Of a DNA stretch of 27,818 nucleotides, positions 1,887 to 27,818 are shown piece after piece. Both the position numbers and the translations under genes were made by a program. How positions within the stretch are numbered: position 1 is the first letter of the stretch; every line of letters starts with the position of its first letter. Location: NCBI GenBank assembly GCA_029865665.1, contig JARXAV010000076.1:1-27818 (forward strand), written 5' to 3'. The notes under the pieces were generated by a model. The model worked only from the letters and a program-made list of their open reading frames with translations. It was not told the DNA's origin and searched no databases. The stretch is from Flectobacillus sp. GTDB lineage: Bacteria; Bacteroidota; Bacteroidia; Cytophagales; Spirosomataceae.

Positions 1887-3188
1887 ATGAACAACTATTC
1901 TAAATTTATCAGTTACACAATCTGTGTAATATCCCTAACAATTGCCTGTAAAACGACAGATACAGACATCTCTAAAACCATTAGCTACCCAGAAATGGCA
2001 GAAGCGTCTAACCCAAAGGTGCTATTAGACATTAATGGCGTGAAAGTGTATAATGGCGGTTATGGTTCTGCGGTAGTACAAGACCCCAACGACCCCGCTG
2101 TATTTTACTTACTTACGGATAGAGGCCCTAATATTGATGGAACAATTACTAACTCAAAAGTATTTGCACAACCTGGTTTTGTTCCTAAAATCGGGAAGTT
2201 TCGTCTGGTCGATAATCAACTAGTTTTAGAGAAAGACATTGAGCTTCAAAACGAGAATAATGTCAAACTTACAGGTTTACCTAATCCTGCAAATTTGGGA
2301 TCTACTGGGGAAATAGCACTCGATTTGAACGGTACTACCTTGGCGAACAGTGCAGACGGTATAGATTCTGAAGGCTTGGCAATGGCACCAGATGGCTCTT
2401 TCTGGATTAGTGACGAATATGGCCCTCATATCCTTCACGTTGATGCAAACGGAAAGACTCTTGAACGTATTAACCCTTTTGGTTCGGGTAAAGGTGGCAG
2501 AAAAATCCCTGCGGTTTTTGCTCGTCGTCGCCCCAACCGAGGAATGGAAGGCTTAACCATTACACCCGATGGAAAAACATTGGTAGGAATTATGCAATTC
2601 CCTCTTTATAACCCTTCTTCCGCTGCAATTTCGGGGTCGTTGGTAACTCGTATTCTAACTTTTGACATTGCTACGGGTGCTACCAAACAATACGTTTACC
2701 TAATTGATAATGCGAAATTACAGGCGATAAGCGAAATTACAGCCATTACAAACACTACCTTTTTGGTATTAGAACGAGATGGTGAATATGGCACCACAAG
2801 CAACAAAAGTACCATTGTTAAGAAAGTTTATAAAATTGACCTAGCAACAGCAACAGACATCTCTGATGCTACAGATGCTGTTGGGGGTAAACTTTACAAT
2901 GGAAAAACTGTTGAAGAACTTAAAACCGCAGCAGATTTACAAACGAATGGAATCACTCCTGTAACAAAAACCTTGGTTGTTGACTTAGCAAATGACTTAA
3001 CTACCATTTATCCACACGATAAAGCTGAAGGGATTGCGGTTATTAATGCTACAACCATAGCTATCTCAAATGACGACGATTTTGGGATTACTGGTACGGG
3101 AACATATAGTGCTAAAATTTTGCCATCCACCAATGCGATTGACCGCAATCGTATTTATTTTATTAAACTATCAAAACCTTTAAAGTAA
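1887..3188 (+). CDS. Esterase-like/phytase-like lipoprotein
   Basis: A 433-residue exported protein. The N-terminus has a hydrophobic stretch ending in LTIAC, with Cys21 as a plausible lipidation site, although position -3 is Thr rather than Leu. The rest resembles the 'esterase-like activity of phytase' family (PF13449), a beta-propeller-like fold. Supporting segments are DPAVFYLLTDRGPNID (about 70-85), SEGLAMAPDGSFWISDEYGPHI (about 161-182), a GMEGLTITPDGKTLVGIMQ repeat and a late KAEGIAVINATTIAISNDDDFG. Acidic clusters of this type bind calcium in phytases. The substrate is unknown; family members have been annotated as phosphatases or esterases on weak grounds. A hairpin terminator follows at 3212-3245, so it probably forms its own unit. 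Confidence 0.75.
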   Translation: MNNYSKFISYTICVISLTIACKTTDTDISKTISYPEMAEASNPKVLLDINGVKVYNGGYGSAVVQDPNDPAVFYLLTDRGPNIDGTITNSKVFAQPGFVPKIGKFRLVDNQLVLEKDIELQNENNVKLTGLPNPANLGSTGEIALDLNGTTLANSADGIDSEGLAMAPDGSFWISDEYGPHILHVDANGKTLERINPFGSGKGGRKIPAVFARRRPNRGMEGLTITPDGKTLVGIMQFPLYNPSSAAISGSLVTRILTFDIATGATKQYVYLIDNAKLQAISEITAITNTTFLVLERDGEYGTTSNKSTIVKKVYKIDLATATDISDATDAVGGKLYNGKTVEELKTAADLQTNGITPVTKTLVVDLANDLTTIYPHDKAEGIAVINATTIAISNDDDFGITGTGTYSAKILPSTNAIDRNRIYFIKLSKPLK

Positions 3189-3211
3189 TTATTAACTAAT
3201 GGTTTTTAGTA

Positions 3212-3245
3212 GAAAGGGCATTTCACTCGTGGAATGCCCTTTCTT
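3212..3245 (+). terminator. Terminator hairpin after the phytase-like gene
   Basis: A 15-bp stem: GAAAGGGCATTTCAC pairs with GTGGAATGCCCTTTC (one T-G wobble) around a 4-nt loop, followed by a short TT run. It starts 23 bp after the stop codon. The U-tract is weak, so efficiency is uncertain. Confidence 0.65.
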
Positions 3246-3295
3246 AATGGCTATTAAGCAGCAAAATATCAGCGAACTAATAGCGTCAAAACCAT

Positions 3296-3320
3296 TTATC
3301 CACATTTTGCGTTATTTTTG
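3296..3320 (+). promoter_or_regulatory. Candidate mfd promoter with an exact DnaA box just upstream
   Basis: TATTTTTG at 3313-3320 matches the Bacteroidota -7 consensus TAnnTTTG and lies 75 bp before the mfd ATG. An exact DnaA box, TTATCCACA, occupies 3296-3304, only 8 bp upstream, inside the region RNA polymerase would cover. DnaA binding here could influence mfd transcription. That is inference from position only, and no good -33 TTG is visible. Confidence 0.35.
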
Positions 3321-3395
3321 TACGTAAATGTTGCCGTGAGTTGTTTTGATAAAAAGCGATTCATGGCTATTGTTGTTTAGATACTCAAAGACCCC

Positions 3396-6300
3396 ATGCT
3401 TGTTAAAGAATTTCTTACGCTCTATCGTGAAGACAGTATTGTGCAGTCCATTGCAGAGCAAATGAAGAATCCTACGGACAATCCACATATCCAAATCAAG
3501 GGATTAGTGGGTAGTTTGGATGCTGTGTTGGTTTCCGCCATTCACCTCCGCAATCCTTCACAACATCATTTATTGGTGGTTTCTGACCGAGAAGAAGCGG
3601 CTTATTTTATCAATGATTTACAAAACTTGGTAGGAGATGAACACGTTTTATCTTTTCCGATGTCTTATAAACGAGCCTATCAATACCAAGAAATTGATAA
3701 TGCCAACGTCTTGATGCGTGCCGAAGTATTGAACAAACTCAATACCGAAAAAGACAAAGGTTTACTCATTGTTACCTATCCCGAAGCACTTTCTGAAAAA
3801 GTTATCAACAAACGTTCTTTACTGAAAAATACGTTTTCTATTTCGGTAAACGAATCGCTTGATACTACTTTTTTAGCCGAAATGCTGACAGGCTACGATT
3901 TCGAGAAAACCGATTTTGTTTATGAAGCAGGACAATTCTCCATCCGTGGGGGGATTGTCGATGTCTTTAGTTATGCCAATGACTTACCTTATCGAATTGA
4001 CCTTTTTGGCGATGAAGTAGAAAGTATCCGAACCTTTGACCCCGAATCTCAACTTTCGGTTGAATCTGTTTCTCGGGTAAATATCATTCCAGACGTTCAA
4101 AATAAGCTTATTCAAGAAACCAGAGAATCCTTTCTGAGCTTTTTTCCAGAAAATACTCGTCTCTGGTTTAGGGATGCCGACTTGGCTTTGGACATTGTGG
4201 AAACCTGTTTTGAAAAAGCCAGCAACGACTTTGAAGCCATTTTGGCAAGAAGCGGGGGCATCAAAGTAATTTCTGAACCCAGCGAACTGTTTGAAACTCG
4301 CAAGGGATTACTCAAACAATTCAAAGGCTTTGGAACGGTTGAATTTGGAAGGAAATTTTATTTCAAAGCGAAAGTCGATGCGGAATCGGAGAAAAAACAC
4401 AACCTATTCCAATGGAGTGCCAGCCTACAACCCACCTTCAATAAAGATTTCAAACGCTTGGCAGATAACCTACGAGAGAATCAGGGTTTCAATTACGTCA
4501 ATATTATTTCGGCAGAATCCCACCGTCAATTAGAACGCCTAGGGACTATTTTTGATGAAATTGATAACAATGTCCGTTTTCAGCCTTTGAGTATTTCCTT
4601 GAGAGAGGGTTTTGTGGATAAGCAAAGTAAAATCGTTTGTTATACCGACCATCAAATCTTTGACCGTTTTCACCGTTTCAAAGAAAAAAGTAAGTATTCT
4701 AAATCAAAATCCCTTACCTTAAAAGAACTCAGAACCCTCCAAACAGGCGACTACGTAACCCACGTGGACTACGGAATTGGGCGTTTTGTGGGGCTAGATA
4801 AGGTGATGGTGAACGATTCAGAACAAGAAGCCTTACGCTTGATTTACCGAGATAACGACATTGTAATGGTGTCTATCCATTCCTTGCACAAGGTTGCCAA
4901 ATATACAGGCAAAGAAGGAACACCTCCAATGATGTCAAAATTGGGTTCTCAGGAATGGGAAAACAAGAAATCACGAGTAAAGAAACAAGTACAAGACATT
5001 GCCAAAGAGTTAATTGCACTTTATGCACAACGTCGTTCGGCGATGGGCTTTGCCTATTCGCCCGACAGTTTTATGCAAGCAGAACTCGAATCGTCTTTCT
5101 TGTATGAAGATACCCCAGACCAAGCAAAAGCAACGCAAGATGTAAAAGTGGATATGGAAAAGCCGCATCCAATGGACAGACTAGTCTGTGGAGATGTTGG
5201 TTTTGGGAAAACAGAAGTTGCCATCCGTGCTGCCTTCAAAGCCGTTGCCGATTCAAAACAAGTAGCAATTCTGGTACCTACCACCGTATTGGCGATGCAG
5301 CACTTCCGCACCTTCCGTGACCGTCTGGAACATTTCCCTTGCCGAGTGGAATATATCAACCGCTTCAAGTCGGACAAGCAAATCAAGGAAACGCTAAAAC
5401 GAGTGGCGGCAGGAGAAACCGACATTTTGATTGGTACGCACCGAATCGTGAATAAAGACGTTACTTTCAAAGATTTGGGCTTAATGATTATCGATGAAGA
5501 ACAAAAATTTGGGGTAAAAGTAAAAGACCGTCTGAAAGAATTCCGTGTCAACGTCGATGTCTTGACCTTAACAGCAACGCCTATTCCAAGAACCCTTCAT
5601 TTCTCTTTGATGGGAGCAAGAGATTTATCCATTATTGCGACTCCTCCGCCAAACAGGCAACCCATCACAACGGAATTACATGTTTTTGACGAAATTCTAA
5701 TTCGTGATGCAGTCAGTTATGAACTCAAACGAGGTGGACAAGTGTATTTTGTTCACAATAGGGTAGGGGACTTAGACGGTATTGCCAATACCATCCTCCG
5801 CCTAGTGCCAGATTCAAAAGTAGGCATTGCTCACGGGCAAATGGGAGGCGACCAACTCGAAAAAGTGATGATGGGCTTTATCGAAGGGCATTACGACGTA
5901 CTAGTTTCGACCAATATCATTGAATCGGGGCTTGACATTCCGAATGCTAATACCATGATAATCAACCATGCTAACCATTTTGGGCTATCCGATTTGCACC
6001 AAATGCGTGGTCGTGTGGGGCGTTCTAACAAAAAAGCCTTCTGTTATTTACTCACAACGCCATTATCGTTACTTTCTACCGATGCCCGCAAACGTTTAAG
6101 TGCCTTAGAAGAATTTTCTGATTTGGGAGACGGTTTCAAAGTAGCTATGCGAGATTTGGATATTCGTGGGGCAGGAAACCTCCTCGGAGCAGAACAAAGC
6201 GGTTTCATCAATGATTTGGGTTATGAACTCTATCATAAAATTTTGGACGAAGCTGTTCAAGAATTGAAAGAAAACGAATTCAGAGCCTTGTTTGAAAAAG

Positions 6301-11036: not shown

Positions 11037-11046
11037 CATTGCAACT

Positions 11047-14409: not shown

Positions 14410-14410
14410 G

Positions 14411-14465: not shown

Positions 14466-15764
14466 CAAAATTTTAATCTCTACTCGTCGATTTATCTCTC
14501 GTTCTTTGGCAGTTCCTTTAGTTCTGAGCGGCTTCAATTCTCCATAGCCCTTCGTCTCTATTCTGGTGGGATTTATGCCGTGAGCAACCAAATATTGCTT
14601 ACAAGCGACAACTCTGTCTATTGAAAGTTGTAGATTATCCTCTTGAGTCCCTTCAATATCGGTATGCCCTTCTAATAAAATACGTTTGTTGCTTTCCTTC
14701 TTCATCCAATCCACCAAGCGATTCAAGTCATTGTAAGAAGATTTCAATAGACTTGCTTCTCCTAATTTGAACACCACGTTTTCTAATCGAATCGTATTTC
14801 CCTCTTTTGCCTCTATCACAAGCGGTTTACTAGGCAGCACCTCCTTTATTAAATCTGCTCTTTTATAGCTTCTAAAGTTATTGCAACCTGCCAGATCGGT
14901 TAAAATACCATAACGTGCGGTATCAATTTTAATGAGATTACCAAGTAAGATGGATTCTTCCGCCAGTTTTACCACACGATCTTTATTCGCTAAATACTCG
15001 ACAATACCACCGTCTTCAAGATGCAAAGCAAAAAAATCATTCGTTATACCAAAGTTGACAACGGGATTAATCTTAGTTTCTTTCAGCACTTTTGGGCTTC
15101 CAGTATTCAATCCCAATACCCACATTTTATTACCAATATTTTGCTTAATCACCATCTCATCATTCTTATTGATATAGAAGTTGCACCCATTCTGACAATT
15201 CGTTCTTTCCCATTTTCGAATATAACTGTTATCTGTCCACAACACATGAACATCACTTTTCCTCAAATCAATACGAACTAAGGTATTCATAGCAGTTGTC
15301 GCAAAATATAAATTCCCTTTTGAATCCGTTCCTCCAGAAATCCACCCCGTATCATCGTGGCTAGGTAATTCCCACTTCGTATATCTTCCAACCTTCGTGG
15401 CAGGATTATATTCATATACTCGTGTCTTATTTACCTCCTTTGCTTTTACGGCATAAACACGGTTATTGAAACTTTTAACAAGAGCATTACAGGGAAAAGG
15501 AAATACATTTTCCATAATTTCGACGGGAACATTAGTGGTAGTTCCCACATCTTCAAATGCAATCAAAGAACCTTTAATTGTTACTCCATAAATCTTATCA
15601 TCGCAATTATTAACCATTCCTCTATCGTAACGATTCAAATTAACGTATTCACGATAAATGCTATCTTGTGCCATTACACGAAAAGTATAACAGCCAATGA
15701 GAAAGCTAAGAATGAACATGTTTCTACTATAATATTGATACTTCTTTGAATGAAGAGAGGTCAT
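14460..15764 (-). CDS. OmpA-like C-terminal domain protein with propeller-like N-terminus
   Basis: A 434-residue exported protein. The signal peptide is MFILSFLIGCYTFRVMAQDS, cleaved after AQ. It starts at residue 16, so the true start may be the internal ATG at 15719 rather than 15764. Residues about 36-310 contain repeated short beta motifs (KGNLYFATTAMNTLVRIDLR, NNRVYAVKAKEVN) that look like a beta-propeller. Residues about 325-432 are an OmpA peptidoglycan-binding domain: NVVFKLGEASLLKSSYNDLN, LLEGHTDIEGTQEDNLQLS, RIETKGYGELKPL and EREINRRVEIKIL. The Asp and Arg that hold diaminopimelate (GHTD, NRRVEI) are present. It probably tethers to the cell wall from the outer membrane or periplasm. 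It stands alone on the minus strand. Confidence 0.88.
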   Translation of the reverse strand: MTSLHSKKYQYYSRNMFILSFLIGCYTFRVMAQDSIYREYVNLNRYDRGMVNNCDDKIYGVTIKGSLIAFEDVGTTTNVPVEIMENVFPFPCNALVKSFNNRVYAVKAKEVNKTRVYEYNPATKVGRYTKWELPSHDDTGWISGGTDSKGNLYFATTAMNTLVRIDLRKSDVHVLWTDNSYIRKWERTNCQNGCNFYINKNDEMVIKQNIGNKMWVLGLNTGSPKVLKETKINPVVNFGITNDFFALHLEDGGIVEYLANKDRVVKLAEESILLGNLIKIDTARYGILTDLAGCNNFRSYKRADLIKEVLPSKPLVIEAKEGNTIRLENVVFKLGEASLLKSSYNDLNRLVDWMKKESNKRILLEGHTDIEGTQEDNLQLSIDRVVACKQYLVAHGINPTRIETKGYGELKPLRTKGTAKEREINRRVEIKILN

Positions 15765-15903
15765 CTCGAATACGTTTATTTTCTACTTGTCTGTTTAGGC
15801 ATCAAAGGATATTGACCTGTCTTAAAAGTCGATTTTATCCTTTTGAATTAATCGTACAAAGTTCTCTATAAATTGCTGATTTTCATACACTCAATTTATA
15901 TAG

Positions 15904-15911
15904 TATCTTTG
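15904..15911 (+). promoter_or_regulatory. Candidate -7 element for ybeY
   Basis: TATCTTTG matches TAnnTTTG and lies 38 bp before the ybeY start, in the divergent gap to the OmpA-like gene. No TTG is seen at the expected -33 distance. Confidence 0.4.
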
Positions 15912-15949
15912 TATTATGATTTTTTTCAAACAAAACACATTCCAAACGG

Positions 15950-16369
15950 ATGATTAATTTTTTTAACGAAGACATTGACTTCAAGTTTAAAGGCAAATTA
16001 GCCTTAAAGAAATGGCTAAAGTCTGTGGCAGAAAGTGAAGGATATAAACTAAAAACGCTTAACTATCTTTTCTGTTCGGATGAGTATGTCCACAAAATCA
16101 ACGTAGAATATTTAGACCACGATACTTATACAGACATCATCACTTTCGATAATTCTGAAGAGGAAGGCAACATTGAAGGCGATATTTTTGTTAGCATTGA
16201 AAGAGTCCGTGAAAATGCGGTAGAGCTAAATTCGGGTTTTGAGAATGAGTTCAAACGAGTACTTGTTCACGGAGTATTACACTTATGTGGATACGACGAC
16301 CACAGCGACGAAGATGAAGCTGAAATGAGAAGACTGGAAAATCACTACATTGATTTGTTCGTCGATTAG
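15950..16369 (+). CDS. ybeY: Endoribonuclease YbeY (16S rRNA maturation)
   Basis: A 139-residue zinc metalloprotein of the UPF0054 family. YbeY acts in 16S rRNA 3' end maturation and ribosome quality control, and is close to essential in many bacteria. The zinc site HGVLHLCGYDDH (107-118) is complete, with His107, His111 and His118. It differs slightly from the usual HGxLHLxGYDH by one inserted Asp. Upstream, YTDIITFDNS (60-69) and GDIFVSIERV (77-86) are also family-typical. Length is normal for Bacteroidota. It is followed by a 305-bp gene-free stretch with parS-like sites and then mnmG. Confidence 0.95.
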   Translation: MINFFNEDIDFKFKGKLALKKWLKSVAESEGYKLKTLNYLFCSDEYVHKINVEYLDHDTYTDIITFDNSEEEGNIEGDIFVSIERVRENAVELNSGFENEFKRVLVHGVLHLCGYDDHSDEDEAEMRRLENHYIDLFVD

Positions 16370-16388: not shown

Positions 16389-16404
16389 GTCTCCACGTGG
16401 AACA
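16389..16404. promoter_or_regulatory. parS-like ParB-binding site 1
   Basis: GTCTCCACGTGGAACA contains the CACGTG core and matches 13 of 16 positions of the palindrome TGTTCCACGTGGAACA, the GC-core variant of the bacterial parS site; the right half is perfect. A second copy is 39 bp downstream. ParB itself is not in the window. Confidence 0.6.
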
Positions 16405-16427: not shown

Positions 16428-16443
16428 CGTTCCACGTGAAGCA
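16428..16443. promoter_or_regulatory. parS-like ParB-binding site 2
   Basis: CGTTCCACGTGAAGCA matches 14 of 16 positions of the parS consensus TGTTNCACGTGAAACA; the mismatches are the first base and one A-to-G in the right arm. Together with site 1 it gives two sites within 55 bp, next to mnmG, a gene often found near the replication origin. Confidence 0.62.
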
Positions 16444-16674: not shown

Positions 16675-18537
16675 ATGCACACGAATTATGATGTAATAGT
16701 AGTAGGAGCTGGTCATGCTGGTTGCGAAGCGGCTCATGCTGCGGCTACTATGGGTTCAAAGGTTTTGTTGATAACCATGAACATGAATACCATCGCTCAA
16801 ATGTCTTGTAACCCTGCAATGGGTGGCGTGGCAAAAGGACAAATCGTCCGTGAAGTGGATGCCTTAGGAGGTATGTCTGGGATTATCTCTGATAAAACCA
16901 TGATTCAATTCAGAATGCTAAACCGTTCTAAAGGCCCAGCTATGTGGTCGCCTCGTTGCCAATCTGACCGTATGCGGTTTGCAGAAGAATGGCGTTTGGC
17001 TTTAGAACGAAATCTTAATGTGGATTTTTGGCAAGAAATGGTGTCAGGACTACTCGTTGAGGGTAATAAAGTAACAGGGGTAAAAACTCAGTTAGGAATT
17101 GAGTTCAGAGCAAAATCGGTAGTACTTACCAATGGAACATTCTTAAACGGATTAATCCACATTGGCGAAAAAAACTTTGGCGGTGGTAGAACTGCTGAAG
17201 GAAAAGCTACGGGTATTACAGAGCAATTGGTAGAATTAGGCTTTGAGGCTGGTCGTATGAAAACGGGAACTCCGCCACGAGTGGATGCTCGTAGTTTAGA
17301 TTTTTCTAAAATGGAAGAACAAAAAGGAGATGAAAATCCAAGTAAGTTTTCGTATTTAGATACGCCTGCATTGACCGAACAACGTAGCTGTTGGATTACT
17401 TATACCAACCACGAAGTACACGAATTGTTGAAAACTGGCTTTGATAAATCACCGATGTTTGCTGGTAGAATCAAAGGACTTGGCCCTCGTTACTGTCCTT
17501 CGGTTGAGGATAAAATCAACCGTTTTGCAGACAAAGACCGTCACCAAATTTTTGTTGAACCAGAAGGATGGAATACAGTAGAAGTCTATGTAAATGGTTT
17601 TTCAACGTCGCTGCCAGAAGATGTTCAATACGCTGCCTTACGTAAAATTCCTGGTTTTGAAAACGTACGAATGTTCCGTCCAGGATATGCGATTGAATAC
17701 GATTATTTTCCACCAACGCAATTGAAAGCAACGCTTGAAACTAAGTTAATTGAAGGCTTGTATTTTGCAGGACAAATCAATGGAACTACTGGTTACGAAG
17801 AAGCCGCTTGTCAGGGACTAATGGCGGGTATCAATGCACACCGCAAAGCACAGGGTTTAGGCGAGTTTGTTCTAACACGTTCGGAAGCATACATTGGTGT
17901 ATTGATTGACGATTTAATCAATAAAGGGACGGACGAACCGTACCGTATGTTTACTTCTCGTGCGGAATACAGAACGCTTTTACGTCAGGATAATGCGGAT
18001 ATTCGTTTAACCGAAAAAGGTTTTGAGATTCAATTAGCTTCTGAAGACCGTCTGGCTAAGATGAAAAATAAGAAGGAGCAAACAGCTAATTTGGTAAATG
18101 ATCTTAAATTCAAAAAAGTAAGACCAGACGAAGTAAACGAGCAGTTAATCGCATTCGGAACAGCTCCTTTAAAAGAAGGTACAAGTATCTACAATTTATT
18201 GAAAAGACCGAATATCGGCTTAGAAGAGATCAAACAATTAACGCCCGAAATCGAAGAATATTTGGCCAAATTTACCGCCGATGTTTTGGAACATGCTGAA
18301 ATCAATATCAAGTACGAAAGCTATATTGAAAAGGAACAAGCCATGGTAGATAAAACCCTACGTCTGGAACACTTGCCAGTTCCTATTGATTTTGATTACA
18401 ATAAATTATCTGCTGTTTCGATTGAAGGTCGTCAAAAATTAAATAAAATTAGACCCGCTACTATTGGTCAAGCATCAAGAATTAGTGGTGTATCCGCATC
18501 TGATATTTCTATTTTGATGATGTTTATTGGCAAATAA
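16675..18537 (+). CDS. mnmG: tRNA uridine-5-carboxymethylaminomethyl modification enzyme MnmG (GidA)
   Basis: A 620-residue FAD-dependent enzyme that, with MnmE, installs the carboxymethylaminomethyl group on the wobble uridine of certain tRNAs. It opens with the dinucleotide-binding motif GAGHAG (11-16). It then shows [23 protein letters not shown], the signature [27 protein letters not shown], the second signature [17 protein letters not shown] and the C-terminal [22 protein letters not shown] tail that binds tRNA and MnmE. Length is standard. mnmG (gidA) commonly lies close to oriC in bacteria, which fits the parS-like sites directly upstream and the DnaA-box region 3 kb downstream. Its partner mnmE is not in the window. 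Confidence 0.97.
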
Positions 18538-18642: not shown

Positions 18643-19530
18643 ATGGTTGAACAATTGCAGGCTTGTCCCATCTGTCAAAGCCAAGAACTTACCCACTTTA
18701 AAACCTGCCAAGACTATACCGTTAGTCAGGAGAAATTTGACATTGTCAACTGTAAAAGTTGCGGTTTTAAATTTACCAATCCACGTCCAGATGAAGCCAA
18801 TGTTGGACGGTATTATAAATCAGATTCCTACATTTCACATAGTAATACCTCAAAAGGAATCATCGCAAAACTCTATCATGCGGTACGCAAATATACCCTA
18901 CAAGGCAAACTATCGCTCATTAATAGACTAGCCAACAAAAAAGGAAAACTACTGGATGTAGGCTGTGGAACGGGAATGTTTATCAACTGTTGTCAGGAAG
19001 CAGGATGGACGGTTAAAGGAATTGAGCCTGACCCTGATGCAGGTAAATTTGCGAAAGAACTCAATAAGGTACAGATTGAATCCCAGATTTTAGGAAGTTA
19101 TTCCAGCGAACAGTTTGATGTCATTACCATGTGGCACGTGCTAGAACACGTTCACCAACTTAATGAAACTGCCAACTGGCTCAACCAACGATTAACAAAG
19201 GAAGGTCACTTAATCATTGCAGTGCCGAACTACGAATCAAAAGATGCTCAAATCTATCAAGAGCAATGGGCGGCTTATGACGTGCCTCGTCATCTATACC
19301 ACTTCTCACAGAAAAGTATCCAGCAATTAATGGGAAATCATGGTTTCAAACTTGTGGAAACGCTACCCATGAAATTCGATTCATTCTACGTGAGTATGTT
19401 ATCCACAAAATACCAAACAGGAAGTATCAATTACCTAAAAGCGTTCTTTGATGGCCTTAAATCAAATCGCTGGGCTAGTAACAATCAACAGAACTATTCG
19501 AGCCTTATTTATGTCTTCAAGAAGCAATAA
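18643..19530 (+). CDS. Class I SAM-dependent methyltransferase with N-terminal zinc ribbon
   Basis: A 295-residue cytoplasmic protein. The N-terminus has two CxxC pairs (Cys8/Cys11 and Cys37/Cys40; CPIC..CKSC), probably a zinc ribbon. A Methyltransf_12/23-like domain follows, with SAM motif I LLDVGCGTG (103-111), the acidic IEPD that ends the second strand, and ITMWHVLEHVHQLNET as the post-I region. A Tyr/His-rich stretch, DVPRHLYHFSQKSIQQLMGNHGF, is typical of methyltransferases that act on sugars or small metabolites in surface-polysaccharide or natural-product pathways. The substrate cannot be deduced, and no polysaccharide genes are nearby. Near its 3' end an exact DnaA box lies within the coding sequence (19399-19407). 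Confidence 0.85.
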   Translation: MVEQLQACPICQSQELTHFKTCQDYTVSQEKFDIVNCKSCGFKFTNPRPDEANVGRYYKSDSYISHSNTSKGIIAKLYHAVRKYTLQGKLSLINRLANKKGKLLDVGCGTGMFINCCQEAGWTVKGIEPDPDAGKFAKELNKVQIESQILGSYSSEQFDVITMWHVLEHVHQLNETANWLNQRLTKEGHLIIAVPNYESKDAQIYQEQWAAYDVPRHLYHFSQKSIQQLMGNHGFKLVETLPMKFDSFYVSMLSTKYQTGSINYLKAFFDGLKSNRWASNNQQNYSSLIYVFKKQ

Positions 19531-19548
19531 TTAACGATATTTAACGTC

Positions 19549-19715
19549 TTATCCACAGCCCTCAGTTTATAAATTAAAACTGAGGGCTTACTTTTGTATT
19601 ACCTTTTTGAAGCTATTCGCTCAAAATTTGACAAATAATCCACAATTTAGAGCGAATTTTAAGAAAAAATCCAATTGAAGAAGATTTAATCCACAATGTT
19701 TTCAACATATCCACA
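19549..19715. promoter_or_regulatory. DnaA-box group upstream of the Ig-like lipoprotein gene
   Basis: One exact box TTATCCACA (19549-19557) and three one-mismatch boxes in the same orientation: TAATCCACA at 19636-19644 and 19687-19695, and ATATCCACA at 19707-19715, the last ending on the base before the ATG. All point the same way within 167 bp. They could be an outlying arm of the proposed origin 1.6 kb downstream, or DnaA-dependent regulation of the lipoprotein gene. Confidence 0.5.
19558..19587 (+). terminator. Terminator-like hairpin directly after a DnaA box
   Basis: GCCCTCAGTTT pairs exactly with AAACTGAGGGC around an 8-nt AT-only loop, 27 bp after the methyltransferase stop codon. 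The following TTACTTTTG is only moderately T-rich. The stem starts on the base after an exact DnaA box. Confidence 0.65.
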
Positions 19716-21356
19716 ATGAAAGTTAAACACATACTATTGATAAGTTTTTTGAGTTTTGTCTTTATTGAGACCCTTTTTAGCTGTGCCCAAATTGTTGCAC
19801 CTACGGGTGGAAAAAAAGATACCCTTGCTCCGAAGTTGGTGCGAGTATTCCCAAATAACCAGAGTAAGAATTTTCATGGAACCTTAATTGAACTACAATT
19901 TGATGAATACGTAAACGTCGATAACATCAAACAACAACTGGTCATCACCCCAAGTTTGACGGAAGGCTACGAAACGAAAATCATGCCGAAGGGCGTTCGA
20001 TTGACCTTGAATGCTCCTTTAAAAGAAAACACCACCTATAACTTGAACTTTAAGGAAACGTTTAAAGACATTACGGAGCGTAATCCTGCCAAAAATGTAC
20101 GCTTAGTTTTTAGCACAGGAAATGTCATTGATTCGTTAAAAGTAGATGGAGAAGTGATGAATGTACTCTCTGGAAAACCCATGATGGATGTATCCGTTGG
20201 TTTATATCAATATTCAGATACCTTAAAGCCTGCAAAGAACAAGCCTTACTATTTTACCAAAACAGATAGTTTGGGCAAATTCAATATGGAAAATATCGCA
20301 GCAGGTAAGTACCGAATCTATGCCATAACTGATTTGGATAATAATTCACTGTATGCTGAAGCTAAGGAAATGATTGGTTTTGTAAGAGATACCATCAACT
20401 TACAAAGCAATCTATCCACACTCAAAATTGCCATGAGTAAAAATGATAAAACTAAAAATAAGGTCAGTAAATCAAGAGCTACGTCAAGTTACTATTTTGT
20501 AGAATACCTAAAACCAATCAAAAGTTTCAAAGTAAGTTTTGCCAAAACAAGCGATAGTATCACTTATCAACAAGTTGGTTCGAACTCAATTCGCTTTTTT
20601 AACATCAAGAAAAATTCAACGGATACCTTAAAAGTACAAATAGCCGTAACGGATTCGCTAGAGCGTGTCTTTACGCATGAGCAAAAAATTAAGTTTAAAG
20701 TACCTAGTAAAAAAGAAAATGATAACATTAAGGAAGAACTTACCACCAAAATAACCCCTGATGCCAACGATGATGTAGAGCCTAAAAGTTTAGCATACAC
20801 ATTGACATTTAGTAAACCTATTCGTTCGTGGAGTATAGATAGCATCAAAGCAATAAGTGATACAATCAAGAAAATTCCTGTTTCGAAAGAACTTATCCAC
20901 TGGAATAAGGACATGACAGAAATGAATATCGTCTTTAAGGAGGTCATCCGAGCCAAAGAAAACATTAGTATTCAATTTCAAAAAGGTGCGTTCATCTCAA
21001 TTGAAGGAGACAGCTCTATGTATATTAAAACCTTAAATCCTATAAAAGATCCAGAACTATATGGGACGATTGGTGGAGAAGTTACCAACAAACAAAAAAA
21101 GAACTTCATTGTACAACTAATCAACGAGCAGGGACAGGTGATACAGGAATTGTTTAATACCCCTGCTTATAACTTCACTTTCGTGAAAGCAGGCTTATAC
21201 ACAATTAGATTAGTGGTCGATGAAAACGGAAATCGTCGTTGGGATACTGGCGATGTGGATAAAAATAGCCTTCCAGAGCCTATTTTGTTTATAAAAGATA
21301 AAATAAAGCTAAAACAGAACTTTGAATTAACTGGATTCAACTTTTCCATAGACTAA
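19716..21356 (+). CDS. Ig-like (SbsA-type) domain lipoprotein
   Basis: A 546-residue surface or periplasmic lipoprotein. The signal peptide ends at FSC with lipidated Cys23, followed at once by AQIVAPTGGKKDTLAPKLVRV, a start that is strikingly conserved in a Bacteroidota family annotated as 'Ig-like domain-containing protein'. Residues about 36-135 form the bacterial Ig-like domain (PNNQSKNFHGTLIELQFDEYV..TTYNLNFKETFKDITERNP). A carboxypeptidase-regulatory-like segment follows near 140-220 (DSLGKFNMENIAAGKYRIYAITDLDNN), and a related one ends the protein (GLYTIRLVVDENGNRRWDTGD). The cellular role is unknown. The 3' end contains an exact DnaA box in the coding strand (21254-21262), and the stop codon lies at the edge of the proposed origin. 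Confidence 0.85.
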   Translation: MKVKHILLISFLSFVFIETLFSCAQIVAPTGGKKDTLAPKLVRVFPNNQSKNFHGTLIELQFDEYVNVDNIKQQLVITPSLTEGYETKIMPKGVRLTLNAPLKENTTYNLNFKETFKDITERNPAKNVRLVFSTGNVIDSLKVDGEVMNVLSGKPMMDVSVGLYQYSDTLKPAKNKPYYFTKTDSLGKFNMENIAAGKYRIYAITDLDNNSLYAEAKEMIGFVRDTINLQSNLSTLKIAMSKNDKTKNKVSKSRATSSYYFVEYLKPIKSFKVSFAKTSDSITYQQVGSNSIRFFNIKKNSTDTLKVQIAVTDSLERVFTHEQKIKFKVPSKKENDNIKEELTTKITPDANDDVEPKSLAYTLTFSKPIRSWSIDSIKAISDTIKKIPVSKELIHWNKDMTEMNIVFKEVIRAKENISIQFQKGAFISIEGDSSMYIKTLNPIKDPELYGTIGGEVTNKQKKNFIVQLINEQGQVIQELFNTPAYNFTFVKAGLYTIRLVVDENGNRRWDTGDVDKNSLPEPILFIKDKIKLKQNFELTGFNFSID

Positions 21357-21526
21357 TTGTGGATAACCTCGCTTTCCACACTGATTTTCCACTTGCCAAA
21401 ACAAGATAAACGAAGCAAAAAGTGGAAAACCACAAAGTATGTGCAAATAGTGTTGATAAGTAGTCGATAATTGGTACAATTAGTGTTGATTAAAAATTAT
21501 AAGTCGTGGAAAGTAATTCTACTTAG

Positions 21527-21542
21527 TTATCCACGTGTATAA
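21527..21542. promoter_or_regulatory. Palindromic double DnaA box on a CACGTG core
   Basis: TTATCCACGTGTATAA is a 16-bp near-palindrome inside the proposed origin. Read from either side it gives TTATnCACG, one base from the relaxed DnaA consensus TTATnCACA, so two boxes overlap head to head, centred on CACGTG, which is also the parS core. Confidence 0.5.
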
Positions 21543-21771
21543 ATACTTGAGTTATCAGCAGCTAACAGACAAGTTAAACACATTAAAAGAGTCGTGTTGA
21601 TAAGCACAAGATAAATGGATAACTTGTAAACATAGATGTTAACAAAAATTAAGTCACTGATTATCAATTATTTAATAGTTAATAACTACTTTATAACTTG
21701 TGGACAAAAGAGGACTTACCCACAAGACTTTAAAAAAAATGATTTCTTAACAATTAATTAACATATCCACA

Positions 21772-21845
21772 GACCATATAGAAATAATAGATTCTTTTCT
21801 CTTTTAAAAAAAAATTAAAATCTATATTTATATACAATGTTGAAA
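21772..21845. other. AT-rich candidate DNA unwinding element
   Basis: A 74-bp block with about one-sixth G/C over its first 69 bases, including nine consecutive A and repeated TATA steps, placed between the last DnaA box (21763-21771) and the TPR gene start. Its position fits a duplex unwinding element; the promoter of the TPR gene must also lie in or near it. Confidence 0.5.
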
Positions 21846-21867
21846 TGTGTGAAAAAATGAAAATGAA

Positions 21868-23700
21868 ATGGAAGAGCGTTTGAAAAATAAAAAAGGGAAG
21901 TGGATTCGATATGGCTGGTGCTTGGTTCTTGTATTGTTGACGGGGTCTTTGAAAGCTCAGGAAGCAGAAGTGGGGATGGAATACCTAAAAGCAGGGGAAT
22001 TTGAAAAAGCGAAGGTTATTTTTCAGAAATTGGCGAAAAGTAAAGAATCAGTAAAGCAAGTTCATAAGCCTTATTTACAGACACTTATCAAGTTGAAAGA
22101 GTGGGATGCTGCTGAGAAATTTCTGAAAAAAGAGATTAAATCTTCAGACGGTGATGTAAAATACATCGCCGAATACGGAAGATTGCTCGAAATGCTTGAA
22201 AAAAAGGAGGATGCCACTAAACAGTACACCCTTGCTGTGGATAAAGCAAAGCTTGATGATAACGTATTGATTGGTCTGTTAAATGACCTAATCGAGAATG
22301 GACAGTACGATTTAGCCATCAAAGCAATTGAAGAGTCGAGAGTTGCTACGAAAGATGCAGGGAAAAAGACCCTAGAGATGGCTAAACTCTATCGTAGAGT
22401 GGGTAAAAGGGCAGAAATGATAGAGGAGTACTTGAGATACGGATTAATGACGGAAAACCTCGAATCTGTCGAAATGATGTTTCAAGATGAACTAAAAGAG
22501 GATAGTGATATTGAACTGTTTGAGAAAATACTTTATGCGGATATTCAGAAGTATCCAGAACAGCCTTATTTCAGTCAACTATTGAGTTGGCATTTAATTC
22601 AAAAGAAGGAATTCAATAGGGCCTTTGTCCAACTGAAAGCCTTGGATCGTCGGTACAAAAAAGAAGGACTTGAAGTTAGCCGTTTGGGGGATTTGGCCTA
22701 TCAAAATAAGGATTTTCAGAGTGCAGGGAAAATTTTTGAATATCTGGTAAAAGAGTACCCCAAAAATGTATATTATCCAGTGTGGAGAAGAATGTTGATA
22801 ACCTCAAAAGAGGAGTTGATAAAGACGGTTTATCCTGTCAATTTAGCGGATATTCGAGTTTTAATCAACGAATATAGTAAGATGTTAGGGGAATTGGGGA
22901 TAAATCAGCGAACATTAGACGGTCTTAGAAATCAAGGTTTATTGTATGCCTTTTATCTAAATGAAAAGGATACGGCAATCACGGTTTTGAACAAGGCAAT
23001 TGCCAATGCTCAGGGTGATCAGCAATTCATAGACCGTTGTAAATTGGATTTGGGAGATATTTATGTGTTGAAAACTGAACCTTGGGAAGCAACCTTATTA
23101 TATTCACAAGTGGAAAAGTCCGAAAAAGATAGTCCACTCGGATACGATGCGAAATTAAGAAATGCAAAATTGGCTTATTTCAGAGGGGATTTTGAATTAG
23201 CTCGTGAGGTCTTGGATATTCTTAAACAAGCTACCACTCGTGAAATTGCTAACGATGCCATGGATTTGAGTTTACTGATTTTAGAAAATACAGGGGAAGA
23301 TAGTACGGAAGCGGGTATGAAATCGTATGCAGCAATTGAATTACTTCTTTTTCAACATCGAGATACGGAAGCCTTAGCAGCGATGGATAAGATGTTGAAA
23401 ACCTTAAAAGGAAATTCATTGGAGGATAACGTGTTATTTTTACGAGCAAAGACCTACTTACGAATAGGTGATGTGGATAAAGCGATTAAAGATTTAGAAA
23501 CGATTCATGAACAATTTGCTATCGAAATTTTAGGGGATGATGCTTTATACACCTTAGCCAAGATTTATCAAGATAATTTGAATCAATCAAGCAAAGCCAT
23601 GAAGTTGTTCCAAGAGTTATTAACAAAATATCCAGGAAGTATCTACGGAGCTGATGCACGAAAAAGATTCAGAAATCTTCGGGGGGATGCAATAAATTAG
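21868..23700 (+). CDS. Exported tetratricopeptide repeat protein
   Basis: A 610-residue protein starting MEERLKNKKGKWIRYGWCLV, with a signal peptide (hydrophobic about 15-28, ending GSLKAQ, cleaved after AQ) and then helical repeats throughout. TPR units are clear at VGMEYLKAGEFEKAKVIFQKLAKS (about 35-58), in the LSRLGDLAYQNKDFQSAGKIFEYLV region (near 270-295), and at the C-terminus (ALYTLAKIYQDNLNQSSKAMKLFQELLTKYPGS). It resembles the periplasmic TPR scaffold proteins widespread in Bacteroidota; the partner is unknown. The coding strand is clearly G-rich over C compared with many genes to the left. Exact DnaA boxes lie inside it at 22236-22244 and 23472-23480. Upstream ATGs at 21857 and 21863 do not lead into this frame. 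Confidence 0.85.
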   Translation: MEERLKNKKGKWIRYGWCLVLVLLTGSLKAQEAEVGMEYLKAGEFEKAKVIFQKLAKSKESVKQVHKPYLQTLIKLKEWDAAEKFLKKEIKSSDGDVKYIAEYGRLLEMLEKKEDATKQYTLAVDKAKLDDNVLIGLLNDLIENGQYDLAIKAIEESRVATKDAGKKTLEMAKLYRRVGKRAEMIEEYLRYGLMTENLESVEMMFQDELKEDSDIELFEKILYADIQKYPEQPYFSQLLSWHLIQKKEFNRAFVQLKALDRRYKKEGLEVSRLGDLAYQNKDFQSAGKIFEYLVKEYPKNVYYPVWRRMLITSKEELIKTVYPVNLADIRVLINEYSKMLGELGINQRTLDGLRNQGLLYAFYLNEKDTAITVLNKAIANAQGDQQFIDRCKLDLGDIYVLKTEPWEATLLYSQVEKSEKDSPLGYDAKLRNAKLAYFRGDFELAREVLDILKQATTREIANDAMDLSLLILENTGEDSTEAGMKSYAAIELLLFQHRDTEALAAMDKMLKTLKGNSLEDNVLFLRAKTYLRIGDVDKAIKDLETIHEQFAIEILGDDALYTLAKIYQDNLNQSSKAMKLFQELLTKYPGSIYGADARKRFRNLRGDAIN

Positions 23701-23918: not shown

Positions 23919-24974
23919 ATGAAGTATTGGTCTTTACTGCTCATGTTGTGTATAAGTCGTACTTATGCACAGCAAAATCCAGCTACGTTTGTTTGTCATT
24001 ATTATGGAAATAGTAGTCAGGTAGATGAAATTTGCCAAAATATGCAACGCTACATTTCGGCGGGTCGTGCCGAAAAGGAGGTCAAGAAAATAGCTTCTTT
24101 GATGAATCTCTCTCGTTGTCCCTTTCAAATGGTCGAATGCGACAATACAGATAATTGTTTTGCAACCCTCGTGGAAGGTGTACCTACCATTATTTATGAC
24201 CGTGATTTTTTGAATCGAGTAGAAGAAGTAACAACTAAAGACTGGTCCGCTATTTCGATTTTAGCTCATGAAGTAGGTCATCTAGTTTATTATCACCCGA
24301 CATCTCCTCGTACCGACCAACGTCAAAAGGAATTAGAAGCAGACGAATTTTCGGGAGCTTGTTTGTTTAAACTGGGTGCAAGTTTAGAAGAAGCTCAATT
24401 AGCGATTAACCATTTTCAGGACGAAACAGGCAATAACACCCATCCGCCAAGATGGGAACGACTCAAGGCTATTGAAAAAGGGTGGAAGGAAGAATGGACA
24501 AAAGCTGGAGGAAAAATGGTGGAAAATAAAAATGAAGAAGCCCAGATAAGCATTGCCGATGAAACGCAAAAAGAAATAATGCAGCCTGTGTACACTCGCC
24601 CACAAGTTGTGGATAACCATCAAACAGGTTGTATCGAAGGAAATTGTTCAGAAGGATTGGGCTATTTTATCCACAGTTCACAAGGAAGTTATAAGGGTTT
24701 ATGGAAAGACGGTAAACGGCACGGAGCAGGAATTCACTATGACCCACAAGGTTACAAAATTTACGAAGGAGATTGGATTGCAGGAAAGCGTGATGGAAAT
24801 GGGATTTACTATTTTGAAACGGGCGAAGTTTTTCAAGGTATTTTTATCAACGATAGACCTAGTTCTTCGGGCGAATATGTTTTAAATAACACAACATCAA
24901 CCGAAATTGTCAAGCTACGCTATGTACATGCAGACGGCACAGAAGAAATCATTCGAGTCAAAAAAGGAAATTAG
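23919..24974 (+). CDS. Secreted M48-like zinc metalloprotease fused to MORN repeats
   Basis: A 351-residue protein with a signal peptide (MKYWSLLLMLCISRTYAQ, cleaved after AQ). Residues about 30-190 carry a zinc-peptidase core: HEVGH (117-121), a downstream ELEAD (138-142) whose Glu would be the third zinc ligand as in M48/gluzincin-type enzymes, and THPPRWERLKAIEKGW (174-189), which mirrors the conserved HP..ER region of that family. Four cysteines (Cys26, 39, 67, 74) precede it. After a linker comes a Cys-containing CIEGNCSEGLGYF and two to three MORN repeats (YKGLWKDGKRHGAGIHY, YEGDWIAGKRDGNGIYY, FQGIFINDRPSSSGEY; about 255-320). MORN repeats usually bind membranes or other proteins. Exact DnaA boxes lie in the gene at 24608 and 24667. 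A terminator follows. Confidence 0.8.
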   Translation: MKYWSLLLMLCISRTYAQQNPATFVCHYYGNSSQVDEICQNMQRYISAGRAEKEVKKIASLMNLSRCPFQMVECDNTDNCFATLVEGVPTIIYDRDFLNRVEEVTTKDWSAISILAHEVGHLVYYHPTSPRTDQRQKELEADEFSGACLFKLGASLEEAQLAINHFQDETGNNTHPPRWERLKAIEKGWKEEWTKAGGKMVENKNEEAQISIADETQKEIMQPVYTRPQVVDNHQTGCIEGNCSEGLGYFIHSSQGSYKGLWKDGKRHGAGIHYDPQGYKIYEGDWIAGKRDGNGIYYFETGEVFQGIFINDRPSSSGEYVLNNTTSTEIVKLRYVHADGTEEIIRVKKGN

Positions 24975-25160: not shown

Positions 25161-26933
25161 ATGAAAACACATCCGCATATCAGTCGAGTTTTTGATCTAC
25201 TCCATAATTGTATCGTTCCGTCTAATAAAGACGATGTTTTTGCCATTAAGCGTGGCGGTACTTGGCATAAATATACTGCTCAAGAGGTATTAAGTATTGT
25301 CAATAAGGTAAGTCATGGGTTATATAAGTTAGGTGTACGAAAGGATGACAAGATTGCCATTGTTTCAACAAACCGACCAGAGTGGAATTTTATGGATTTG
25401 GGTATGCAGCAAATAGGGGCTGTTTCTGTACCTATGTACCCAAATATTACGGTCGAAGATTACAAATATATTTTTGCTGATGCAGGGGTAAAATTCATTT
25501 TTGTCTCAGATGCCCACTTATTAGCAAGAGTAAAGGAGGCAACTTCCATGTTAACAGACATCGAAGCAATTTATACCTTTGATGAAATTGATGGGGAAAA
25601 AAACTGGAAAGAGGTCGCTTTAGCTGGTGAAAAAGGAGATAATACCCAACTCGAACAACTTAAAAATGAAGTCAGTTCGCATGACTTGTTAACGCTTATT
25701 TATACTTCGGGAACGACTGGGAAACCTAAAGGGGTAATGCTTACGCACCGCAATATTGTGGCAGATATTGAAGGAGTAATTGATGGAAAACACCTTGAAT
25801 TTGAACCGACGGATAGGGCATTGAGCTTTTTGCCTTTGTGCCATATTTATGAACGAACCAATTTATATGTGTTTATGCGGTCTTCAGTTTCTATCTATTA
25901 TGCCGAAAGTATGGAAACGATTGGGGATAACTTAAAGGAAGTAAAACCTCAAGTATTTGCCACCGTACCACGTTTATTGGAAAAAGTGTATGATAAAATT
26001 GTAGCGAAAGGTCATGAACTAACAGGCGTTAAGAAGCAATTATTCTTCTGGGCTTTAAACCTTGGACTTCGTTATGACCCAATGGCAGATATGGGTTGGT
26101 GGTATAATTTTCAATTAGTAATTGCTCGAAAATTGATATTTAGTAAATGGCAAGAAGCTCTTGGGGGTAATATCAAATTAATTGCTTCGGGTTCGGCTGC
26201 TTTACAACCCCGTTTATCTCGTGTATTTTGGGCAGCAGGTATTCCAATTGTAGAAGGTTATGGACTTACGGAAACTTCACCTGTGGTTTCTTCGAGTTTA
26301 TTAGACGATTTTAGAGTGGGCTGTGTCGGTTCAGTAATTCCTAATATCCAAGTGAAAATTGCGGACGATGGCGAAATTTGTGTAAAAGGCCCTACCGTAA
26401 TGAAGGGGTATTACAACAACCTAGAAGCAACTGCCGAAGTGATTGACTCAGAAGGCTGGTTTCATACAGGTGATATTGGAGAATTATTTGAAGGAAAATA
26501 TCTGAAAATTACCGATCGTAAAAAAGAGATTTTCAAAACTTCGGGTGGAAAATACGTTGCTCCACAATTGGTGGAAAATAAATTGAAGGAGTCTATCTTA
26601 ATTGAACAGGCAATTGTGGTAGGTGAAGGACAGAAATTCCCATCGGCTTTAGTGATTCCTGAGTTTAATGCTTTGAAAGATTGGTGTAACCGAAATGACA
26701 TTGCTTATACCACCAACGAACAAATGGTTTGTAATGAAAAAGTAAAGCAGAAATTTAATGAGGATGTAAAAGCGTTAATGCAAAGCATTGCTCAGTATGA
26801 ACAGGTGAAGAAAATTCATATTCTACCAGCTTTATTTACGATAGAAGGAGGAGAATTGACCCCTACATTAAAACTAAAACGCAAGGTTATCCACACAAAA
26901 TACAGTCATCTCATCGAAAAACTGTATGAATAG
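25161..26933 (+). CDS. Long-chain fatty acid--CoA ligase (AMP-forming)
   Basis: A 590-residue adenylate-forming enzyme that activates long-chain fatty acids with ATP and CoA, at the inner face of the membrane. Motifs in order: the phosphate-binding loop YTSGTTGKPKGVMLTHRN (181-198), LSFLPLCHIYERT (near 220), the adenine-binding GYGLTETSPVVS (about 366-377), the ribose-binding TGDIGE (436-441) and ITDRKKEIFKTSGGKYVAP (about 450-468), with a complete C-terminal subdomain. The wording KEIFKTSGGKYVAPQLVE fits the FAA1-like long-chain group common in Bacteroidota. It has a complete length and is preceded by a palindromic operator-like site. It converges with thrC over a long inverted repeat. Confidence 0.93.
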   Translation: MKTHPHISRVFDLLHNCIVPSNKDDVFAIKRGGTWHKYTAQEVLSIVNKVSHGLYKLGVRKDDKIAIVSTNRPEWNFMDLGMQQIGAVSVPMYPNITVEDYKYIFADAGVKFIFVSDAHLLARVKEATSMLTDIEAIYTFDEIDGEKNWKEVALAGEKGDNTQLEQLKNEVSSHDLLTLIYTSGTTGKPKGVMLTHRNIVADIEGVIDGKHLEFEPTDRALSFLPLCHIYERTNLYVFMRSSVSIYYAESMETIGDNLKEVKPQVFATVPRLLEKVYDKIVAKGHELTGVKKQLFFWALNLGLRYDPMADMGWWYNFQLVIARKLIFSKWQEALGGNIKLIASGSAALQPRLSRVFWAAGIPIVEGYGLTETSPVVSSSLLDDFRVGCVGSVIPNIQVKIADDGEICVKGPTVMKGYYNNLEATAEVIDSEGWFHTGDIGELFEGKYLKITDRKKEIFKTSGGKYVAPQLVENKLKESILIEQAIVVGEGQKFPSALVIPEFNALKDWCNRNDIAYTTNEQMVCNEKVKQKFNEDVKALMQSIAQYEQVKKIHILPALFTIEGGELTPTLKLKRKVIHTKYSHLIEKLYE

Positions 26934-27050: not shown

Positions 27051-27818
27051 CTAAGCCAAAAGATAAGCTTTAAAGTCCTCAAAGTTTTTACTCATCGGTA
27101 TCGCTACTTTTTCTTTAGATAATAAATCCGAAAGACGGGTTGGAACTTCAACTTTCGTCCCTAATGTGTCTTCGACTACATCCAAGAATTTAGCATAATG
27201 TGCTGTGGATAAAAAGACTCCCGCAACTTCTTCTTGCAACGATTTAGTGTAATCCTTCAGACCTAAATAAGCTACCGCAGTATGTGGACACATCACATAA
27301 CCTGTGCGATCAAATACTTCTTTGATCGCTACACGAGTCTCGGCATCGTCTCTGAAATCGCCAGAAATATGTTTGACTACTTCTTCATACGCATCACCTG
27401 CTAAGATACGCATACGAATAAAGTTGGAAGGGTTACCTACATCCATTGCGTTAGAAATCGTTTCTTGCGAAGGTTTTGGTTCGTAAACTCCTGTGGATAA
27501 GTAGTTAGGAACAATGTTATTCACATTGGTAGCCGCCACAAACTGCTGAATTGGTAAGCCCATACGCTGTGCAATTAAGCCAGCCGATAGGTTTCCGAAG
27601 TTACCACTTGGCACACAGAAGACCACAGGTTTTGTATTACCCATTTTCTTCAACTGTGCATAAGCACTAAAATAATAGAATGCTTGTGGAATTAAACGGC
27701 TGATATTGATAGAGTTAGCCGATGCTAAGTTGAACGTTGTGGATAACTCTTTATCTAAGAATGCACCTTTCACTAAAGCCTGACAATCATCGAATGTTCC
27801 ATCTACTTCTAAAGCCGT
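27051..27818 (-). CDS. thrC: Threonine synthase, C-terminal part (cut by window edge)
   Basis: The frame is open to the right edge, giving the last 255 residues of a protein whose N-terminus lies outside; the usual length is about 430-440. Threonine synthase converts O-phosphohomoserine to threonine with pyridoxal phosphate. Visible family segments are TALEVDGTFDDCQALVKGAF at the edge, NLASANSINISRLIPQAFYY, VPSGNFGNLSAGLIAQRMGL (the Gly-rich loop that holds the cofactor phosphate), NVNNIVPNYLSTGVY, MDVGNPSNFIRM and a late CPHTAVAYLGL. The cofactor-binding lysine must be in the missing part. Three exact DnaA boxes lie within this coding sequence (27204, 27492, 27738). Confidence 0.93.
   Translation of the reverse strand, partial: TALEVDGTFDDCQALVKGAFLDKELSTTFNLASANSINISRLIPQAFYYFSAYAQLKKMGNTKPVVFCVPSGNFGNLSAGLIAQRMGLPIQQFVAATNVNNIVPNYLSTGVYEPKPSQETISNAMDVGNPSNFIRMRILAGDAYEEVVKHISGDFRDDAETRVAIKEVFDRTGYVMCPHTAVAYLGLKDYTKSLQEEVAGVFLSTAHYAKFLDVVEDTLGTKVEVPTRLSDLLSKEKVAIPMSKNFEDFKAYLLA

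Follow-up and report, generated by a model that had tools for sequence, protein, structure and literature searches.

Box counts, base composition, synteny and the GC skew of related chromosomes indicated that the 511-nt intergenic gap at positions 21357–21867 of the window, the whole 27,818-nt stretch of DNA analysed here, is the chromosomal origin of replication (oriC), with a probability of about 0.9 for a case that is wholly in silico and takes its chromosome-wide skew from relatives. Exact DnaA boxes also occurred in excess within the genes around this gap, which may reflect an origin-proximal DnaA titration zone retained by selection within coding sequence.

DnaA-box array and AT-rich block of the intergenic gap

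The gap (27.6% GC) lies between the open reading frames at 19716–21356, encoding an Ig-like protein, and 21868–23700, encoding a TPR protein, and is the longest among gaps between ORFs taken as genes, as the first-pass annotation had claimed for the longest non-coding stretch. Its claim of one exact and at least six one-mismatch DnaA boxes was also confirmed by the box scan. Allowing one mismatch, seven boxes (one exact TTATCCACA and six one-mismatch) were found in the gap against 0.20 expected, and none of 500 dinucleotide shuffles reached seven; allowing two mismatches, 18 were found against 2.4 expected, again with 0/500 shuffles. The gap thus contains a non-coding DnaA-box cluster beyond chance, as is characteristic of oriC. 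A recount of the 69 bases directly after the last box (21772–21840) gave the 11 G/C reported earlier, and across the 27.8 kb the windows of 50, 69 and 100 nt that are poorest in G/C were all located within the gap, at or after the last box, so that the array is adjoined by an AT-rich putative unwinding element, another characteristic of oriC. Neither RNA families (at the gathering threshold) nor tRNAs were detected in the window. The features of the gap are as follows.

21357..21867, no strand: predicted oriC, intergenic DnaA-box array and AT-rich unwinding region (boxes, GC, synteny, skew, alignment)
21358..21366, minus: exact DnaA box TTATCCACA (box scan)
21451..21459, minus: one-mismatch DnaA box TTATCAACA (box scan)
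21527..21535, plus: one-mismatch DnaA box TTATCCACG (box scan)
21595..21603, minus: one-mismatch DnaA box TTATCAACA (box scan)
21699..21707, minus: one-mismatch DnaA box TTGTCCACA (box scan)
21716..21724, plus: one-mismatch DnaA box TTACCCACA (box scan)
21763..21771, plus: last box ATATCCACA, conserved, adjoining the unwinding region (box scan, alignment)
21772..21840, no strand: AT-rich block, 11 G/C per 69, probable duplex unwinding element (base count)
21779..21790, plus: conserved triplet tract TAGAAATAATAG leading from the last box to the AT-rich block (alignment of relatives)

Alignment of 14 gaps, from the window and 13 relatives, gave a mean column identity of 46%. In the 13 gaps that reach it (the L013 sequence ends early) the 3' edge was nearly fixed, consisting of approximately AATCCACA-TATCCACAG, a few nucleotides, TAATAGAnATAATAG, a T-rich and then an A-rich stretch, and the TPR gene, with the second box changed in L001 and L002. 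The last box of the window corresponds to the second member of a tandem pair in many relatives, the first member being degenerate in the window, and a related edge, e.g. TAGTAATAATTAA, was found in Dyadobacter.

Where the last DnaA box gives way to the AT-rich block, a tract of TA(A/G) triplets was conserved in the window (21779–21790) and relatives. The succession of DnaA boxes, short spacer, triplet tract and AT-rich DNA resembles the basal unwinding system with DnaA-trios as outlined in PMC8287927 and PMC6669920, but the triplets of the window read 5'-TA(A/G)-3' from the box to the AT-rich block, apparently opposite to the 3'-GAT-5' given there along the loaded strand. Under the published search rule, a DnaA box must have at least three 3'-NAN-5' triplets, oriented as published, no more than 16 bp away; the window's first such run of three begins 19 nt past the last box, and a run of four triplets in the opposite direction begins 7 nt past it. 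Canonical DnaA-trios were therefore rejected, and the tract was not classified as a basal unwinding system because of the reversed triplets and the search rule. A similar TAATAAG-type stretch lies beside box R1 of E. coli. A literature search found no paper joining the DnaA-trio with Bacteroidetes, and in a separate search Flectobacillus and Arcicella were unmentioned among the matches listed.

Conservation of the locus and change of GC skew in relatives

Comparison of the same intergenic region across related genomes, which had been suggested as a check, showed that its place is conserved. Homologous loci numbered 63; the region following the Ig-like gene was examined in 53 of them, the other 10 being excluded as short or partial. 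At least one exact DnaA box was present in the same gap in 43 of the 53 relatives (four to eight boxes in 32, one to three in 11), and the array thus keeps the same place across related genomes, as is expected of oriC. Among the 10 loci with no exact box, eight were distant homologues (27–28% identity), L038 had four one-mismatch boxes instead, and L021 is hardly a test of box presence because an ORF was called 23 nt downstream of its Ig-like gene. In Xanthocytophaga flavus (L042) the array stays beside the TPR gene at about 3.9 kb from the Ig-like gene; the array occupies the TPR side of an Ig-like/TPR gap that measures 4.3 kb (11624–15954) at this locus.

Among the matches listed, the closest relatives of the Ig-like protein that bear an organism name were those of Arcicella (55–61%), and in a tree of 31 Ig-like proteins the window came out beside the Arcicella group (moderate support, 89/82), within a clade that includes Flectobacillus and Pseudarcicella. 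The window was taken to be chromosomal DNA from an Arcicella relative. The Ig-like protein of L008, recorded as Cellulophaga sp. BC115SP, fell inside Flectobacillus in this tree, and the genus name of the record looks wrong.

The GC-skew check was carried out on stretches sampled from near-complete chromosomes of three relatives (G091, G181 and G078), and in all three the sign changed around the homologous locus and not at dnaA, which lies 1.69 Mb (G091), 1.61 Mb (G181) and 1.77 Mb (G078) away and is not flanked by a change of sign. In G091 (a 5.43-Mb contig) the mean skew was -0.014 on the left and +0.034 on the right (19 + 19 stretches; Mann-Whitney p 0.004), and the skew was positive on either side of dnaA, located at the contig start. 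The sampled skew of G091 was best divided by a single split at 4.04–4.10 Mb (difference 0.064, compared with 0.047 at the locus and 0.019 at dnaA), 0.3 Mb to the right of the locus, because the skew is near zero at 3.80–3.92 Mb. Left and right means were -0.043 and +0.031 in G181 and -0.035 and +0.017 in G078, each from 9 + 9 stretches plus two beside oriC. The skew switch found in these relatives has exceptions: five of 19 left stretches of G091 were positive (all more than 1.8 Mb off) and three of 19 right stretches slightly negative; in G181 the skew was already positive over the 20 kb immediately left of oriC and was negative in the two stretches farthest to the right; and in G078 it was still negative over the 12.5 kb immediately right, as it was in two of nine right stretches, with one of nine left stretches positive. 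In the window itself, the pooled third-position GC skew of plus-strand genes was about -0.09 left of the gap (12 genes, two of them positive) and about +0.21 right of it (three genes, one slightly negative). As a separate observation, the replication arms of the G091 chromosome (C6) look unequal in the sampled skew, with a second sign change at about 1.7–2.1 Mb that is not opposite oriC.

Nearby parS-like sites and mnmG had been offered in the first-pass annotation as further support for an origin, and these are located upstream of the gap.

16389..16404, no strand: parS-like site GTCTCCACGTGGAACA, core CCACGTGG; weak alone
16428..16443, no strand: parS-like site CGTTCCACGTGAAGCA, three mismatches
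16675..18537, plus: mnmG

While mnmG was found where it had been claimed, the parS argument held for the placement in relatives and not for the sites of the window alone, which do not exceed chance: one site was found at three mismatches, and at least one such site occurred in 20 of 100 shuffles. The two degenerate sites of the window are 39 nt apart within the ybeY-mnmG gap, upstream of the oriC gap. Sites within three mismatches of TGTTTCACGTGAAACA were found in 26 of the 63 named loci, and the other 37, including Flectobacillus L007–L009, had no match at that threshold. Placement was checked in 19 of the 26 loci in addition to the window; all 19 had at least one parS-like site within the ybeY-mnmG gap, and in 12 of the 19 the locus contained an exact site, located in that gap or else some 4.4 kb ahead of the Ig-like gene. 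The box array and lowest-GC windows, the conserved 3' edge of the gap, the conservation of the locus, the skew change in relatives, the parS-like sites of the ybeY-mnmG gap and the third-position skew all support the earlier proposal that the gap is the origin.

The gap resembles oriC regions as predicted by Ori-Finder and DoriC (PMC10225481, as far as that account describes them) in its box array, adjacent AT-rich block and skew change, but differs in not being located at dnaA, in being flanked by Ig-like and TPR genes, and in having one exact box inside and 14 outside. Farther upstream in the window, gldJ, a gliding-motility lipoprotein gene, is located at 7083–8333, about 13 kb from oriC, and 11026–14409 encodes a protein of 1127 aa with a weak DUF4175 match, whose coding strand is strongly purine-rich, with an AT skew of up to 0.44 near 12.5–13.5 kb.

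Exact DnaA boxes in the flanking genes

The window contains 15 exact TTATCCACA boxes against 0.26 expected, a number reached in none of 100 shuffles and absent from the first-pass annotation. Twelve are inside ORFs and three between them. Those outside the gap are located in or between the following features.

3008..4621, no strand: three outlying exact boxes (3008+, 3296+, 4613-), about 17–18 kb upstream (box scan)
18643..19530, plus: methyltransferase gene; exact box at 19399
19549..19557, plus: exact DnaA box in the gap upstream of the Ig-like gene (box scan)
19716..21356, plus: Ig-like (Big_5) lipoprotein gene; exact box at 21254
21868..23700, plus: TPR protein gene; exact boxes at 22236 and 23472
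23919..24974, plus: MORN/M48-peptidase-like gene; exact boxes at 24608 and 24667
25161..26933, plus: acyl-CoA ligase gene; exact box at 26887
27051..27773, minus: threonine synthase-like ORF that may leave the window; exact boxes at 27204, 27492 and 27738

For 18 loci, boxes in the ORFs from -5.5 to +6.5 kb were counted and compared with synonymous-codon shuffles of the same ORFs. Coding boxes exceeded the shuffled mean in the window (9 versus 0.81), G091 (10 versus 0.64), G001 (6 versus 0.88), G092 (7 versus 0.84), G003 (7 versus 0.45) and G181 (3 versus 0.19), the observed number being reached in 0/300 shuffles in each case. A weaker excess, of one to three coding boxes, was found in six loci of the Arcicella group and Pseudarcicella, where the shuffles out of 300 reaching the observed number were 24 (L001), 61 (L002), 5 (L003), 2 (L004), 11 (L006) and 1 (L010), and also in G078 (one box, 1/300), L024 (three, 5/300) and L027 (two, 60/300). 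By the same test, no coding boxes were found in Dyadobacter L014 and L063 or Sandaracinomonas L053. Since flanking boxes are missing in some related origins, they are not required for initiation as such.

The excess near oriC also stood out against other composition controls, as is expected of a titration zone. In the pooled flanking genes of the window, G091, G001 and G003, 32 exact boxes were found compared with 2.85 in synonymous shuffles, an 11-fold excess; 400 permuted words averaged 0.13 occurrences in the window flanks outside the gap, with a maximum of two, compared with 11 for the exact box; and the commonest 9-mer of both the window flanks and the G091 flanks was TGTGGATAA. Distant genes of G091 showed no excess (two boxes versus 1.94 in 205.6 kb), genes in stretches 20–100 kb off had five boxes versus 1.04, and the reversed word ACACCTATT was rarer near oriC than far off in G091.

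Certain one-mismatch variants were enriched in the pooled flanks, with 0/200 shuffles reaching TTATaCACA (5 versus 0.83), TTATCaACA (12 versus 3.2) or TTATCCACt (5 versus 0.91). Others were weakly raised (TTATgCACA, TTATtCACA and TTtTCCACA, reached in 16, 18 and 5 of 200 shuffles), and TTATCtACA (1 versus 3.0) and TTATCgACA (0 versus 1.6) were not raised. This DnaA-like tolerance of variants resembles that of protein binding, and the consensus TTWTNCACA given for E. coli in PMC12371093 likewise lets position 5 vary.

At the scale of whole genomes, the close relatives G001 (136 boxes in 6.6 Mb), G002 (106 in 5.9 Mb) and G003 (108 in 5.4 Mb) had one exact box per 49–56 kb, and boxes were rarer in two others. 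In G091, 16 of 88 exact boxes were within 5 kb of oriC, 10 of them coding, and a weaker gradient spanned about 0.5 Mb (KS p 8e-11 outside 20 kb), the density being 4.3–4.4 per 100 kb at 20–250 kb and 0.5–0.7 beyond 1 Mb. In G036 the six boxes within 5 kb of oriC lay no more than 0.41 kb from the Ig-like gene, and its wide excess (KS p 3e-5, with the chromosome taken as 6.30 Mb, another figure being 6,251,631) peaked in density at 250–500 kb and was lower closer to oriC. Within 5 kb, G181 had eight boxes and G078 five; neither chromosome showed a wide gradient outside 20 kb (KS p 0.43 and 0.18), and a broad gradient common to all relatives was therefore rejected in this comparison, which covered G091, G181, G078 and G036 and left out G129. 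An E. coli-like strand preference was likewise rejected for G091 outside 5 kb, where boxes showed no clear bias (17 plus and 16 minus on the left, 16 plus and 23 minus on the right).

Secondary clusters of two to six exact boxes were observed away from oriC (L196–L203, in G091, G181, G036, G002 and G129); some of these lie inside genes, and they might act as extra DnaA sinks. Seven of the eight clusters were scanned (L199 was left out), and the genes there encode an epimerase, an aminotransferase, a histidine kinase, a competence protein, an FAD oxidoreductase, an outer-membrane barrel and a protein with no match. Because the genes at these seven clusters are unrelated, a conserved datA-like second locus was rejected.

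Box positions were compared between lineages whose third-position identity is 0.37–0.49 and in which 1–11% of 9-mers are identical. Three of the four TPR boxes of G091 recurred in G003 and two of its four Ig-like boxes in G001; the Ig-like box of the window recurred in G091 and G001 and not in G003 or L001, and neither of its two TPR boxes recurred in any of these four. In an alignment of 30 TPR genes, column 1610 carried a box in 10 genes of several genera, on a conserved FVDK motif that is encoded by other codons in six Dyadobacter loci, and column 1587 carried one in five genes (three of them from near-identical Flectobacillus), with the residues LST, unlike the others. Some box positions are thus common to relatives and others turn over, while the count remains high.

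Possible roles of the flanking boxes

In the mechanism we propose, which for initiation itself is the ordinary one, DnaA would fill the intergenic boxes of the gap, and the box at 21763–21771 would pass it on to the adjoining TA-rich tract; the block at 21772–21840 would then melt, helicase would be loaded and two forks would depart. The coding boxes beside oriC would be copied among the earliest DNA after initiation, and since they are copied first, the strong DnaA sinks per origin would double at once, which would bring the level of free DnaA under the initiation threshold and impede another firing. Such origin-proximal titration is the role that we prefer for the flanking boxes, at roughly even odds. 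For the Flectobacillus group and the lineage of the window there may be, with about an even chance, a compact titration zone of 6–10 exact coding boxes within about 6 kb, achieved mostly by codon choice with changed residues at one site, in which the number is selected while many positions turn over, with the weaker gradient of about 0.5 Mb in G091.

It is possible, though rather unlikely, that an extended or multipartite orisome includes the boxes of the TPR and Ig-like genes as functional components, which would aid unwinding through loops or a long DnaA assembly instead of serving as a sink. The recurrence of TPR columns 1610 and 1587 agrees with this, as do the bipartite origins of B. subtilis and H. 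pylori, in which box groups flank a gene beside the unwinding element according to PMC8235120; that intervening gene is dnaA, whereas here it is the TPR gene, box positions often turn over (both TPR boxes of the window are without a counterpart in the four relatives) while their number stays high, and related origins with no coding boxes exist. Control of host-gene transcription by the boxes, with no role in initiation, would suit their presence in or near several genes but is improbable, considering that 12 of the 15 exact boxes of the window are scattered within coding sequence and not at promoters, that the genes have no evident function in common, and that enrichment tracks the distance to oriC in G091.

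That the coding boxes are neutral products of codon usage or composition is very improbable in view of the synonymous shuffles, the permuted words, the roughly chance number in distant genes of G091 and the lack of accumulation of the reversed word near its oriC, even though one shared site falls on the conserved FVDK motif. Scarcely credible is the explanation that the gap is itself a datA- or DARS-like box cluster and the true origin is elsewhere, e.g. at dnaA. Small clusters elsewhere in relatives are in its favour, but the skew changes sign around the gap locus on all three chromosomes, and an origin at dnaA was rejected because none of the three has an adjacent sign change and G091 has no exact box within 40 kb of dnaA; moreover, the place of the gap is conserved, and the seven other clusters scanned are beside unrelated genes.

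Titration by flanking boxes, the preferred reading, has parallels in E. coli. The datA and DARS loci are also DnaA-box clusters that affect the supply of DnaA, but they are separate non-coding loci, whereas here boxes surround oriC within genes. Olivi et al. 2025 (PMC12371093) reported that E. coli boxes accumulate between centisomes 98 and 5; in both cases boxes gather towards oriC and beyond oriC itself, and titration has been proposed. That enrichment, as described there, extends from centisome 98 to 5 and includes consensus and loose motifs, whereas the boxes of G091 within 5 kb are exact and its 0.5-Mb gradient weaker; in the present case the boxes are more densely packed, span a shorter region and lie within genes. 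Enrichment near oriC is thus already published for E. coli, and the dense gene-embedded form was, provisionally, not found in print. Literature on the origin of this family was likewise not found in a provisional search of titles and the starts of abstracts that took in few subscription papers.

According to the account of Berger and ten Wolde (PMC9640692), titration alone prevents premature reinitiation only with sites near the origin, a placement inconsistent with E. coli experiments. If the compact zone is true, it would match the layout that theory singled out as capable of stopping reinitiation by titration alone at fast growth and set aside for E. coli. Since synteny can locate the oriC of this family, away from dnaA, it could serve to orient draft genomes and to infer replication rates from metagenomes. 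Flectobacillus and the window, which have flanking boxes, and the tested Dyadobacter and Sandaracinomonas loci, which lack them, form a natural contrast that would allow the long-debated DnaA titration model to be tested by synonymous recoding, with the intergenic oriC untouched.
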